From Rhizobiales bacterium Y(2018) (lineage in GTDB: Bacteria; Pseudomonadota; Alphaproteobacteria; Rhizobiales; Aestuariivirgaceae): a DNA stretch of 64,000 nucleotides. The stretch spans positions 62,001-126,000 of the forward strand of contig SCPD01000018.1 in assembly GCA_005502925.1 (NCBI GenBank). Direction: 5' to 3'. This document shows positions 9,055 through 57,517 of the stretch, one piece after another. The position numbers and the translations under genes were made by a program. Numbering within the stretch: the stretch's first letter is position 1; each line of letters begins with the position of its first letter. The notes under the pieces were generated by a model. The model did no database searches. It had not been told where the DNA came from and saw only the letters and a list, made by a program, of their open reading frames with translations.

Positions 9055-9084
9055 CAACAGTACGGCTGTCATCCCAACTTCATC

Positions 9085-9257
9085 CTTCCCCCTTGCGGGG
9101 AAAGTGGCTTCCCGGCCTTAAGCCGGGAAGCCGGATGGGGGTCGGGTGGTTTGGCAAGAATTGCCGACAAATGGGAAGAGTAAGAAGCAGGTTCTGAAGC
9201 ACCACCCGACCCCCACCCCCGCCCTTCGGGCGTACCCTCCCCGCAAGGGGGAGGGAG
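9085..9257. repeat. paired inverted palindrome downstream of binding protein
   Basis: Left arm 9085-9150 and right arm 9201-9256 are inverted copies (cccttgcgggg / ccccgcaaggg; gggggtcgggtggt / accacccgaccccc), each with an internal hairpin. The 50-base centre has no gene. The organisation matches 1353-1490, with a related cgcccttcgggcg core. It separates the binding-protein gene from the permeases. Confidence 0.85.
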
Positions 9258-9328
9258 AAGATGCGTGCATCCGATAGCGGCGAAAGCCGGGGTGACGGTC
9301 GAGCGGGACTTTCAACGAGCATACGGAA

Positions 9329-11440: not shown

Positions 11441-11558
11441 ATATCCTCATGCTGAGGTGGCCGCGAAGCGGCCCTCGAAGCATCCACCAGGATAGAGTGA
11501 ATCTGCTGAAGCATGCCCTTCGAGGCTCGCTGCGCTCGCACCTCAGGGTGAGGGTATC
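11441..11558. repeat. paired inverted CCTCAxxxTGAGG repeat
   Basis: Two inverted arms: tcctcatgctgaggtggccgc at 11444 onward and its counterpart ending cacctcagggtgagggtat at 11558, each with an internal hairpin around a gcxxgcxxagc core. The same family occurs at 51712-51850. It splits the operon between the small membrane protein and the first ATPase. Confidence 0.85.
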
Positions 11559-13685: not shown

Positions 13686-14288
13686 ATGAAGCCGGATCTT
13701 GGCCGATTGCTGGAGGGGGTGGCGGCGCGCATCATCGCCCAGGCGGAAGAACTGACGGCGCTCGATTCGGCCATTGGCGATGCCGATCACGGGCTCAATA
13801 TGAAACGCGGCTTCGAGGCGGTGCTGGCCGACAAGGCGAATATTCTCGCCAAGCCGCTGCCGGAAGCGCTGAAGGCCGTCGGCATGACGCTGGTCATGAA
13901 AGTGGGCGGCGCCTCGGGCCCGCTTTATGGCACCTTGTTTCTGACGCTCGGCAAGGAATTGCCGGAAGATCCGACGCTGGCCGATCTGGCGCGGGCGCTC
14001 ACCGCCGCGGTCGAGGCGATCAAGGCGCGCGGCAAGGCCGATTTCGACAACAAGACGATGCTCGATGTGCTGGGCCCCGTCGCCCGGCATCTCAGCGACG
14101 GCACCGCCACCTTCGCCAGCGTGCGCGCCCTTGCCCATGAGCGGGCGGAAGCGACCGTGCCGATGAAAGCGATCAAAGGCCGGGCGTCTTTCCTCGGCGA
14201 GCGTTCCATCGGCCATATGGATCCGGGCGCCCGGTCGAGTGAGTTGATGATCACCACGCTATGTGATGAACTTGAGGCCTGCGCGTGA
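13686..14288 (+). CDS. dhaL: dihydroxyacetone kinase ADP-binding subunit DhaL
   Basis: 200-residue cytoplasmic subunit that holds a permanent ADP-Mg cofactor, receives phosphate from DhaM and passes it to dihydroxyacetone on DhaK. The Mg-binding acidic cluster DSAIGDADHGLN lies at residues 27-38, with Asp27, Asp32 and Asp34. The nucleotide-cap region ASGPLYGTLF and the later GRASFLGERSIGHMDPGA are also present. The length matches E. coli DhaL (about 210). The stop codon lies inside the left arm of a dispersed palindrome (14281-14328). Start is immediately after the ATPase stop. Confidence 0.96.
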   Translation: MKPDLGRLLEGVAARIIAQAEELTALDSAIGDADHGLNMKRGFEAVLADKANILAKPLPEALKAVGMTLVMKVGGASGPLYGTLFLTLGKELPEDPTLADLARALTAAVEAIKARGKADFDNKTMLDVLGPVARHLSDGTATFASVRALAHERAEATVPMKAIKGRASFLGERSIGHMDPGARSSELMITTLCDELEACA

Positions 14289-14328
14289 TCAGGAAAAGTG
14301 GATGCCGGTTTTCCGTCCGATCACGCGC
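14281..14328. repeat. GCGCGTGATC palindromic repeat, half unit
   Basis: Arms gcgcgtgatc and gatcacgcgc pair perfectly over 10 bp around a ggaaaagtgg...ccggttttcc core. The same unit is half of the composite elements at 29729-29840 and 57404-57517. It supplies the last codon and stop of dhaL and separates it from dhaM. Confidence 0.88.
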
Positions 14329-14344
14329 CAAACTTGGATAGAGG

Positions 14345-17626: not shown

Positions 17627-17681
17627 ACACCTCGCCTCTCTCGCGCGCAGGACTGTTCGGGGAAACTCGCCGATATATACA

Positions 17682-17755
17682 AGCTCTTACCTGGATTCCC
17701 TTCTCCCGTTGCGCAGCAATGGGAGAAGGTGCCCGAAGGGCGGATGAGGGCTCTT
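17682..17755. repeat. left inverted arm of the DUF559 element
   Basis: Reads agctcttacctgg, then hairpin cttctcccgttg/caatgggagaag, then hairpin gcccgaagggc, then ggatgagggctctt. Reverse complement of 18163-18237 apart from a few changes. Confidence 0.88.
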
Positions 17756-18125
17756 ATTGGACTTCTGGCAGTTTGCCTTCAAGTGCGAGCAGGATCATGC
17801 CCATCACGTCGTCGAAATGACGGTAGATGTCGTCGTTCAATACACGCACCACCCTATAGCCTTGTGATTTTAGATAGGCCGTTCTTCGCTCATCATAGGC
17901 GATTTCGCTATCAGCAGAGTGGGTGGCACCATCGACTTCAACGACAAGATGTGCTTCGCGGCACAGGAAATCGACGGTAAACGGGCCAATGGGACATTGG
18001 CGAGCGAATTTGTGATCTTGCAGCCGTCGGCCGCGCAGGCCGGACCATAATCGTGTTTCAGCCGGTGTTTGAGCACGGCGGAGTCGGCGAGCTTGCGCAA
18101 GGCGTTTCTGCTCGGTGAGGGCCAT
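17754..18125 (-). CDS. DUF559 (Vsr-like endonuclease fold) protein
   Basis: 123-residue protein starting MALTEQKRLAQARRLRR. It has the DUF559 pattern: TPAETRLWSGLRGRRL near residues 20-35, then KFARQCPIGPFTVDFLCREAHLVVEVDG, whose spaced Asp and Glu (VDF and VEVDG) are the PD-(D/E)XK-like catalytic core, then YDERRTAYLKSQGYRVVRVLNDD. The fold is related to very-short-patch-repair endonucleases; no activity is established for the family. An in-frame start ten codons earlier is possible. It lies between inverted repeat arms and its neighbours are unrelated in function. Confidence 0.88.
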   Translation of the reverse strand: MALTEQKRLAQARRLRRAQTPAETRLWSGLRGRRLQDHKFARQCPIGPFTVDFLCREAHLVVEVDGATHSADSEIAYDERRTAYLKSQGYRVVRVLNDDIYRHFDDVMGMILLALEGKLPEVQ

Positions 18126-18162
18126 AACGCATTCAAATCTGCCACAGAACATCATGTCTCAA

Positions 18163-18237
18163 AAGAGCCCTCATCCGCCCTTCGGGCACCTTCTCCCATT
18201 GCTTTGCAACGGGAGAAGGGAAATCGAGGTAAGAGCT
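18163..18237. repeat. right inverted arm of the DUF559 element
   Basis: Begins aagagccctcatccgcccttcgg and ends gaggtaagagct. It lies upstream of the DUF559 start and can fold into two consecutive hairpins. Confidence 0.88.
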
Positions 18238-18285
18238 CGTGTGTTTCAGCGATTTTGGGAAACCCTGGGTAGGGCGAGGGTAAGG

Positions 18286-29728: not shown

Positions 29729-29840
29729 GATCACGATCAATTCAGGTCTTACGACCTGAATTGATAAACGTGATCGGAATCTTAAGTTGGCGCGTGATCG
29801 GGCGGAAAACCGGTATCCACTTTTCCTGATCACGCGCTAG
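29729..29840. repeat. composite palindromic repeat, copy 1
   Basis: Two hairpins in tandem. Hairpin A has arms aattcaggtc/gacctgaatt with outer gatcacg/cgtgatc. Hairpin B has arms gcgcgtgatc/gatcacgcgc. The element occurs inverted at 57404-57517 with about 90 percent identity by eye, and hairpin B alone at 14281-14328. Confidence 0.9.
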
Positions 29841-51711: not shown

Positions 51712-51850
51712 CCCCTCACCCTGAGGTGCCCGCCGAAGGCGGGCCTCGAAGGGTCCCGCAGGACGCGAAGATTGACAGGCGCTGTTGAGGGTAATTCTGA
51801 CGGACCCTTCGAGGCTCGCTGCGCTCGCACCTCAGGGTGAGGATTGGGGA
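51712..51850. repeat. paired inverted CCTCAxxxTGAGG repeat
   Basis: Arms accctgaggtgcccgccgaaggc (from 51718) and its inverted partner ending cacctcagggtgagg (51842), with a spacer of about 50 bases. Same family as 11441-11558. Positioned between the response-regulator gene and malyl-CoA lyase. Confidence 0.85.
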
Positions 51851-55830: not shown

Positions 55831-55936
55831 CCGTCATCCCGGCGAAAGCCGGGATCCACAAAAGCCTCTCCATGCGACGGACGCTGCCCGCGTCGCGTGA
55901 GTTTAATGGGTCCCGACTTTCGCCGGGATGACGGGG
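55831..55936. repeat. paired inverted repeat gtcatcccggcgaaagccgggat
   Basis: Two inverted arms of about 28 bases (55831-55858 and 55908-55936) around 50 bases, between the ATPase and permease genes of one operon. A widely distributed rhizobial intergenic repeat type, seen once in this window. Confidence 0.85.
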
Positions 55937-57403: not shown

Positions 57404-57517
57404 CTAGCGCGTGATCAGGAAAAGTGGACACCGGTTTTCCGTCCGATCACGCGCTAAATATAAGATTGCGATCACGTTTATCACTTCAGGTCGTAACGAC
57501 CTGAAGTGATCGTGATC
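57404..57517. repeat. composite palindromic repeat, copy 2 (inverted relative to copy 1)
   Basis: Tandem hairpins gcgcgtgatc/gatcacgcgc and cacttcaggtcg/cgacctgaagtg with outer gatcacg-type arms. Reverse complement of 29729-29840 with scattered substitutions that are mostly compensatory in the stems (attcaggtc/gacctgaat against cttcaggtc/gacctgaag). Confidence 0.9.

Follow-up and report, generated by a model that had tools for sequence, protein, structure and literature searches.

The unit at positions 17682-18238 of the window (the whole stretch of 64,000 nucleotides that was analysed) is best read as a selfish element made of a gene and its flanking repeats, which behaves in the manner of a REP/RAYT pair or of a homing gene but with an unrelated nuclease of the PD-(D/E)XK type as its enzyme. 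Judged from sequence, the DUF559 protein encoded in the unit is probably the trans-acting enzyme of the arm family. The argument draws on the layout of the unit and its generality, its specificity with regard to two control families, the matching of arm and protein subfamilies, repeat copy numbers that track the gene, turnover between close genomes, exchange at the inner arm edges, and purifying selection on the protein; from these we infer that DUF559 acts on the arms or mobilises them. Among the non-coding sequences of bacterial genomes, REP-like repeats are common, and those of the GTAG class have a known enzyme, RAYT. DUF559 is a widespread family that is still listed under “unknown function” in Pfam. 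If the reading is true, the function of a common small bacterial nuclease and the spreader of a whole group of repeats would be answered together, and the gene-plus-hairpin strategy would have arisen at least two times with unrelated enzymes.

The DUF559 gene (PF04480; 17754-18155, minus strand) codes for 133 amino acids of a Vsr/EDxHD-like nuclease and is placed between a left inverted arm (17682-17758) and a right inverted arm (18156-18238), neither of which has been assigned a strand. The arms align in inverted orientation over 75 bp with 94.7% identity (blastn), and without gaps over 67 nt at 93% (17696-17762 against 18156-18222, inverted-repeat search). The stop codon of the gene (TTA on the plus strand, 17754-17756) lies inside the left arm, while its start codon is immediately next to the right arm. 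In the direction of the gene, each arm consists of a strong C-rich outer hairpin, a short inner hairpin GCCCGAAGGGC and a tail GGATGAGGG. In the left arm, these are the outer hairpin CCTTCTCCCGTTGC..GCAATGGGAGAAGG at 17699-17729, the inner core at 17731-17741, and the tail at 17742-17750, directed at the gene; the right arm is built in the same manner, with its tail also directed at the gene, and the inner core GCCC..GGGC is present in both arms. The open reading frame between the arms is DUF559, and no DDE or other known transposase was detected in the unit.

A gene-free pair of the same arm family is located at 1353-1490 (no strand assigned), where one GGCC-core and one GCCC-core arm are inverted and separated by a 17-base spacer, GTTTCGGTGCAGCGGCT. 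The mismatch of cores in this pair is also found in most examined pairs of the genus. The stretch at 9076-9285 (likewise without strand) contains another gene-free pair, of a different arm subfamily (D type, tail ..GGATGGGGG), in place of which the related genome G001 has a pair of CGTC type. Folding of single-stranded DNA gave z-scores of -4.1 and -4.9 for the arms of the unit and -7.3 for the gene-free pair at 1353-1490. In an equivalent inverted-arm test only 2 of 241 other window positions were positive, both corresponding to one 19-bp pair; together with the strong fold z-scores, this argues that the window arms are not due to chance. Comparison of the window with Rfam at gathering cut-offs yielded zero matches. 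The first-pass annotation had described a DUF559 gene bounded by 75-bp inverted arms with its stop codon in one of them, which blastn and the PF04480 match confirm, and the gene-free pair with a 17-base spacer that it reported is real.

To assess how general the arms are, 500-bp flanks of DUF559 genes were compared by opposite-strand blastn at E up to 1e-3, with settings fixed for all groups. In the genome from which the window derives (G000, 7.1 Mb), DUF559 is represented by five intact genes and a frameshifted one, and inverted arms flank all of them (6/6), as they do 20/21 loci in other members of the genus and 75/107 in the same order. None of 29 Vsr genes (PF03852), taken as a control from the same order sample, is arm-flanked. 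With the stricter threshold of E up to 1e-6, the numbers are 6/6, 19/21 and 66/107, and Vsr remains at zero. Omitted from the genus count are L058 (a fragment beside L044), L007 (the second half of L006) and two contig-edge loci. The order sample was drawn from the matches listed, none weaker than E 1e-20; two contig-edge loci were left out of its count, and six listed matches with E below 1e-20 were omitted, contig-edge and partial ones among them. Controls comprised 29 of 30 Vsr loci (one short dropped) and 26 of 30 loci of Y1 transposases (four short dropped). It had been proposed that most DUF559 genes in relatives would be flanked by inverted arms, and this holds; the opposite outcome, homologues not enriched beside arms, was not seen, the enrichment being strong compared with 0/29 for Vsr.

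Outside the order, arms were found at E up to 1e-3 in 24/29 loci from other orders of the class and in 19/31 from other classes of the phylum, in addition to 2/7 extra loci of the same order, where some arms are just 18-25 bp long and the Vsr control covers the order only. At E up to 1e-6 the corresponding values are 19/29, 14/31 and 2/7. This sample includes all 31 listed other-class matches to E ~1e-29, 29 of the listed other-order matches, and seven from the same order. The two-sided test was failed by 32/107 order loci and 12/31 other-class loci. Among the order misses, however, a loose C-rich hairpin occurs within 300 bp in 22/32, compared with 0/29 for Vsr, and several have a pair on one side only. 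In a search of named genomes, 3 of 10 DUF559 loci (39-53% identical) are arm-flanked, in Sphingomonas, Pacificimonas and Cytophagaceae, against 4/136 control positions. In a plasmid collection, 7 of 47 records were examined and arms flank the gene in five of the seven, including Sinorhizobium meliloti, Azospirillum and Deinococcus; at the remaining two, from Neisseria gonorrhoeae and Picosynechococcus, arms were not found. The repeat family had been called rhizobial, a designation that proves too narrow, because the layout is present in other classes of the phylum as well as, in single examples, in Deinococcus and Cytophagaceae. Recurrence in many bacteria suggests that the DUF559 family spreads, or helps spread, a common bacterial repeat family. 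On a plasmid of Sphingomonas parapaucimobilis, an arm-flanked DUF559 gene (L132) is situated within the suf operon, between sufB and sufC.

The window protein matches PF04480 with E 9e-34 over residues 17-125 (116 bits, curated cut-off 20.6), and neither Vsr nor Y1 (PF01797) is among its Pfam matches up to E 1. In 65 aligned relatives, D62, F63, E73, G76 and H79 are invariant and D75 is nearly so, a set of residues that appears metal-nuclease-like. The alignment profile matched 13 structures in PDB, of which the 8 weakest (E at least 0.5) resemble chance. The best are 3hrl (endonuclease-like, 4e-39) and the mobile-intron protein 3r3p (3e-6), which we take to be I-Bth0305I, an EDxHD homing endonuclease; weaker are PvuRts1I (1e-3) and Vsr 1cw0 (0.07). 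The PADLOC profile “homing endonuclease” also matches DUF559 (E 1e-4). As indicated by the profile match to 3r3p, DUF559 is related in its predicted fold to EDxHD/Vsr-type homing endonucleases. Values of dN/dS range from 0.05 to 0.35, with a median of 0.08, in the 12 of 253 pairs whose dS was usable, among them three copies from a single genome. Such low values indicate that purifying selection maintains a functional protein, even though some copies decay, as seen in the frameshift of L006/L007 and the stop codon in L055. In the available part of PMC12907096, a DUF559 protein is assigned to the PD-(D/E)XK superfamily, and Caulobacter VsrA, which holds a DUF559 domain, is described as required for the DNA-damage response when a cytosine methyltransferase is missing. 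As far as that source goes, this speaks for the ability of a DUF559 protein to damage cellular DNA. Of the earlier characterization of DUF559 as Vsr-like in fold and without known role, the fold is supported, if weakly (1cw0), while the second part is outdated by VsrA (PMC12907096, same part).

By eye, about six arm types can be distinguished in the genus; each goes with a DUF559 group of its own, and nearly all end in GGRTGRGG beside the gene. In 25/26 genus positives the tails of both arms are directed at the gene. Among the order positives, the tag is on both sides in 42/75 and on neither in 19/75, and one-sided tags occur at 1/29 Vsr loci; tags are not as widespread as arms. Similarity of arms follows similarity of proteins, with a Spearman coefficient of 0.57 within genomes (112 pairs; 0/5000 within-genome shuffles) and 0.16 over all pairs (0/500 shuffles; 101 positive loci from 49 genomes), a correlation that owes much to recent, nearly identical copies of whole units. 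In the middle class of protein similarity, arm similarity is raised as well, with a mean of 0.41 (14 pairs) versus 0.28 (68 pairs). The within-genome result agrees with the expectation, formulated in the first-pass annotation, that arm families co-vary with DUF559 subfamilies. There are also arm types without a matching gene subfamily, such as the B and E types in G000 and G001.

The arm core is present in G000 in 88 copies at up to 3 mismatches, and a broader arm pattern in 190 copies, gene-free inverted pairs among them; the controls gave 0 in both cases. With arms at 6/6 units of the same genome, the proposed RAYT-like layout, a gene between repeats plus many gene-free pairs elsewhere, is evident. 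Counting the pattern, which is tuned to the subfamilies of G000 itself, in 150 genomes of the order gave a median of 13 copies in the 56 genomes whose DUF559 match is strong (E no higher than about 1e-20) and 0 in the 78 without any; in 16 genomes with weak matches alone the median is 2.5. At least 5 copies were counted in 38/56 strong-DUF559 genomes versus 8/78 without DUF559, and 18/56 of the former have fewer than 5, nine of them none. Since the 150 genomes are not independent, comparison was also made within families; of the 14 mixed ones, 11 have the higher mean copy number in genomes with DUF559 and 2 in those without, with 1 tie (p 0.022). After removal of genome size, the rank correlation between DUF559 and copy number is 0.57. 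Strong DUF559 gives an odds ratio of 13 for having at least 5 copies, compared with 3.8 in the case of Y1 and 1.2 in that of Vsr, and the repeats track DUF559 better than either of the other two.

Y1 transposases (PF01797, RAYT and IS200 types pooled) were detected in 23 of the 150 genomes. Their loci, which double as a method control for the arm test, have inverted repeats of other sequence in 16/26, reading GAATTACGGGGACAGTTTACT and others, and a loose C-rich hairpin within 300 bp in 0/26. At five of them (L319, L335, L336, L338 and L339) the inverted repeats resemble GAATTACGG(G/T)GACAGTTTACT. Those containing GGGGACAG fit GGGGWSAS, given as a TIRYT motif in the part of PMC3733652 available. 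In the 26 repeat-rich genomes (at least 20 copies), strong DUF559 is present in 22, any DUF559 in 24 and Y1 in 8. RAYT-type enzymes as movers of the C-rich arms were rejected for most of the 150 genomes, given the lack of the hairpin at PF01797 loci and the 18/26 repeat-rich genomes in which Y1 is missing.

Turnover of the units was followed between G000 and G001, genomes of ~94% identity. Flanks of the window unit are 94-95% identical in the two, but the unit is absent at the orthologous site in G001, where a CGTC-type REP pair was found instead. The two genomes have nine units in total, and DUF559 is missing at the orthologous site of the other genome for all 8 comparable ones (five of G000 and three of G001); L001 was left out, as no G001 counterpart was found, and for L047, where the G000 interval is 4.9 kb, absence means that no PF04480 match was found there. 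In ~126 kb of G000/G001 alignment, 11 sites with DUF559-type arms were detected in one or both genomes, of which 8 differ and 3 are common to both. Among the differing ones are all five that have the window's own arm type, while the three common sites belong to other types. At differing sites, the repeat family of one genome is often replaced by another family in the sister genome. At the window site of three further relatives the left flank alone could be aligned, followed by other sequence or repeats. The arms of this unit without the gene at this site, which would have pointed to independent insertions, were thus observed in 0/4 relatives, counting G001 with its CGTC-type pair. In a third genome, G004, the L045 site has a DUF559 gene, as does the L005 site if the left flank alone is taken as a guide, so that loss explains some of the absences.

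Alleles with and without the gene show where the exchange takes place. At the L006 site, G000 has the gene and G001 (L343) an arm pair with a 70-bp spacer; the two alleles diverge after GGATGAGGGTGT and rejoin at ACCAACACCCTCATCC, that is, at the inner arm edges. Similarly, the left half of L002 and the gene-free element L385 are 93.5% identical over 108 positions, from the element end through the left arm; clear identity stops at the inner edge of this arm, with about ten weakly matching bases beyond. The empty sites L340 and L341 have no arms at all, and some other DUF559-free sites hold other repeats. Inner cores are matched in 9/11 gene-bearing pairs and unmatched (GCCC + GGCC) in 20/22 gene-free ones (Fisher 7e-5), in a comparison that is partly pattern-selected, as most gene-free pairs come from a GCCC-core search that under-samples GGCC/GGCC. 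In an unselected listing, inspected by eye, gene-free pairs are unmatched in 10/10 cases in G000 and 7/9 in G126. This difference implies that the gene-bearing unit is not a gene-free pair into which a gene was merely inserted; at least one arm changes too. At the arm ends of 101 loci, no regular target duplication was found, and there is only a slight excess of shared words: at least 5 in length in 21 loci (~15 expected), at least 6 in 4 (~3), at least 7 in 2 (~0.6 expected from shuffled pairing) and at least 8 in none.

A second type of element accompanies some of the units. Ends of the CAGGGCTGTCCGGGGAA type are present at 27 sites in G000 (e.g. L380-L387), including 11 complete small elements of 179-400 bp, 5 of which have exact 9-10-bp target duplications. 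Most of the small elements contain gene-free arms, and the loop of another C-rich hairpin is a frequent location for them. The same ends bound L001, L002 and L057 (633-683 bp), with DUF559 inside, and L002 has a precise empty site in G001. In the window, a lone terminal repeat CAGGACTGTCCGGGGAA, the one that bounds these three other units, lies at 17648-17664 (plus strand, 1 mismatch); no second end was found at the window locus. At up to 1 mismatch the CAGGGCTGTCCGGGGAA ends are absent from G001, although this genome has three DUF559 units; the TIR element is thus a vehicle for some units and not the cause of the association. We presumed CAGGGCTGTCC ends to be of ISAs1 type; an ISAs1 transposase as their owner was rejected, as no NF033564 match was obtained in five genomes, and no transposase was found for the TIR element. 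An element of 1415 bp with CAGGGCTGTCC ends (L361, in G004) hosts another IS at about 1500-2840, presumably IS5-like by eye, which sits in the loop of an arm hairpin. Among the matches listed for the TIR element in the plasmid collection there are short pieces alone.

Concerning the mechanism, DUF559 would most likely recognise the GGRTGRGG-tagged C-rich hairpin when it is extruded as a single strand or a cruciform, and its PD-(D/E)XK-type active site would cut there. Repair of the cut, guided by arm homology, could copy an arm pair or the whole gene-bearing unit into the site. The gene would spread like a homing gene, and gene-free arm pairs as its non-autonomous passengers, in the way REPINs do with RAYTs. 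Replacement of the arms along with the gene would account for the matched cores of gene-bearing pairs.

These observations can be accounted for in other ways. DUF559 could be concerned with homing only, as a parasite that cuts arm pairs spread by something else and copies itself between the arms by conversion. The mobile-intron homing nuclease 3r3p is indeed its best-scoring relative of known role in the profile search, and the PADLOC match, the switch from gene to spacer at or near the inner arm edge in L343/L006 and L385/L002, and the contrast between matched and unmatched arm cores all agree with such a role. Against it, gene-free arms are rare in genomes lacking DUF559 (median 0); no other spreader was found, Y1 being absent from 18/26 repeat-rich genomes, and L340 and L341 are empty entirely without arms. 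We consider homing alone unlikely. Lower still is the probability we assign to a host-side nuclease, that is, a Vsr-like enzyme of repair or hairpin processing which binds or restrains the repeats and adjoins them for regulation (the hairpin acting as a terminator), with no mobilisation. What speaks for it is the damage-response role of Caulobacter VsrA (available part of PMC12907096) and the E. coli gene ycjD, with its stop codon in a C-rich hairpin and at least 80% of its segment present in 3330/5426 E. coli genomes. A fixed host gene would hardly show presence-absence turnover in 8/8 comparisons together with broken copies, which look selfish; genomes also have several unlike DUF559 copies, each with its own arms, and the Vsr genes of the same order sample lack arms (0/29).

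Arms and gene might also be passengers, either as cargo of the TIR transposon with CAGGGCTGTCCGGGGAA ends and 9-10-bp target duplications, or by landing in hairpin-rich hot spots. Three complete cases (L001, L002 and L057), one with the precise empty site in G001, and the swapping of different repeat families at the same intergenic sites fit this explanation. The window adds only a lone end to them, however; G001 has its three units without such ends (up to 1 mismatch), the five genomes have no ISAs1 transposase, and hot spots fail to explain either the arm-less Vsr (0/29) and Y1 (0/26) genes or the subfamily match. It is regarded as very improbable. We give almost no credence to the last alternative, in which the arms are moved by RAYT/TIRYT tyrosine transposases and DUF559 plays no part. 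GGGGWSAS is common to some TIRYT repeats, according to the part of PMC3733652 available, and GGGGTGAG would fit this motif; the odds ratio of 3.8 also links presence of Y1 to repeat richness. Nevertheless, the Y1 loci of the same genomes have repeats of other sequence and none of 26 has a loose C-rich hairpin within 300 bp, while in genomes without Y1, the 18/26 repeat-rich ones among them, the effect of DUF559 stays (median 8 vs 0).

We return to DUF559 as the probable enzyme of the arms, and to its resemblance to described systems. With REPtrons (RAYT/TnpA_REP with REPINs) the unit shares a gene flanked by inverted tagged hairpins, many gene-free pairs, and a gene type that matches the repeat type. 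It differs in its enzyme, DUF559 of PD-(D/E)XK/Vsr type in place of HUH-Y1, and in the gene-side tag, which as read is GGRTGRGG and not GT[AG]G. Without an HUH-Y1 enzyme and a GTAG foot, it was not filed under REPtrons. EDxHD/Vsr-fold homing endonucleases are alike in fold by profile (3r3p, 3e-6), in being small free-standing genes and possibly in having gene and no-gene alleles at one site, which L006/L343 and L002/L385 would fit, whereas DUF559 units lie between repeated hairpins in intergenic regions, several of them per genome, and no intron was noticed. Likeness to Vsr (PF03852) is limited to the weak fold match to 1cw0 (E 0.07), as the window protein has no Pfam Vsr match up to E 1 and Vsr genes have no arms (0/29). 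Inverted ends and the coexistence of gene-bearing and gene-free forms recall MITEs and TIR insertion sequences, from which the units differ by having no DDE transposase, no clear target duplication at the arms, and ends that are themselves hairpins. RIMEs are, like the arms, intergenic repeats of rhizobia, and they may include arms of DUF559 type. In contrast to DUF559 units, RIMEs are given as of unknown function and no nuclease is named for them in the available part of PMC2573895. The CGTC REPs of alphaproteobacteria (PMC3733652, Di Nocera 2013) also form inverted pairs and occupy the same intergenic sites, where they replace DUF559-type pairs between G000 and G001; they read GTCATCCCGGCGAAAGCCGGGATCC and, in the part of that paper available, have no associated transposase genes and apparently no dedicated enzyme.

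The DUF559 unit is a gene-plus-hairpin-repeat system with an unrelated enzyme, and a new form of that kind. No report linking DUF559 to such repeats was found in titles and the beginnings of abstracts of mostly open-access literature, and earlier reports may exist. On a broader scale, we give about even odds to a reading in which a third large superfamily of tagged palindromic repeats, comprised of C-rich hairpins, many with GGRTGRGG tails, and extending over several phyla, has in the DUF559 proteins the dedicated enzymes that were missing for so long. Its members would be REP-like repeats moved by a PD-(D/E)XK-type nuclease and not by an HUH transposase, the REP/RAYT lifestyle would have a separate origin here, and YcjD would be a tractable member.

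In E. coli K-12, ycjD (L397; fabI-ycjD-sapF in MG1655) has its stop codon in a C-rich hairpin, which makes the DUF559 reading testable in this strain, though ycjD fails the two-sided test and has an arm on one side only. When PF04480 was searched for, the E. coli genome included as a control gave no match. The ycjD segment is held at a cover of at least 80% by 3330/5426 E. coli genomes, and the 55-base hairpin region beside the gene has a median of 4 close copies per genome (any copy in 5100/5426). In three strains without ycjD, efflux-related genes were found beside fabI or sapF, so there is no simple empty site.

Several other repeats were noticed in the window. A CGTC-type REP pair (CGTCATCCCGGCGAAAGCCGGGATCC, inverted) is located at 55831-55934, where G001 has a pair of DUF559 type. 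Another repeat family, GCGCGTGATCAGGAAAAGTGGACACCGGTTTTCC..GATCACGCGC, is represented at 14281-14332, 29749-29840 and 57404-57496 by copies ~95% alike, and upstream of the window G000 has similar stretches that G001 lacks. Finally, an identical 38-bp sequence, CCCTTCGAGGCTCGCTGCGCTCGCACCTCAGGGTGAGG, comprised of a hairpin and a GGGTGAGG tail, occurs at 11516-11553 and 51805-51842; its copies possibly constitute one more tagged repeat family.
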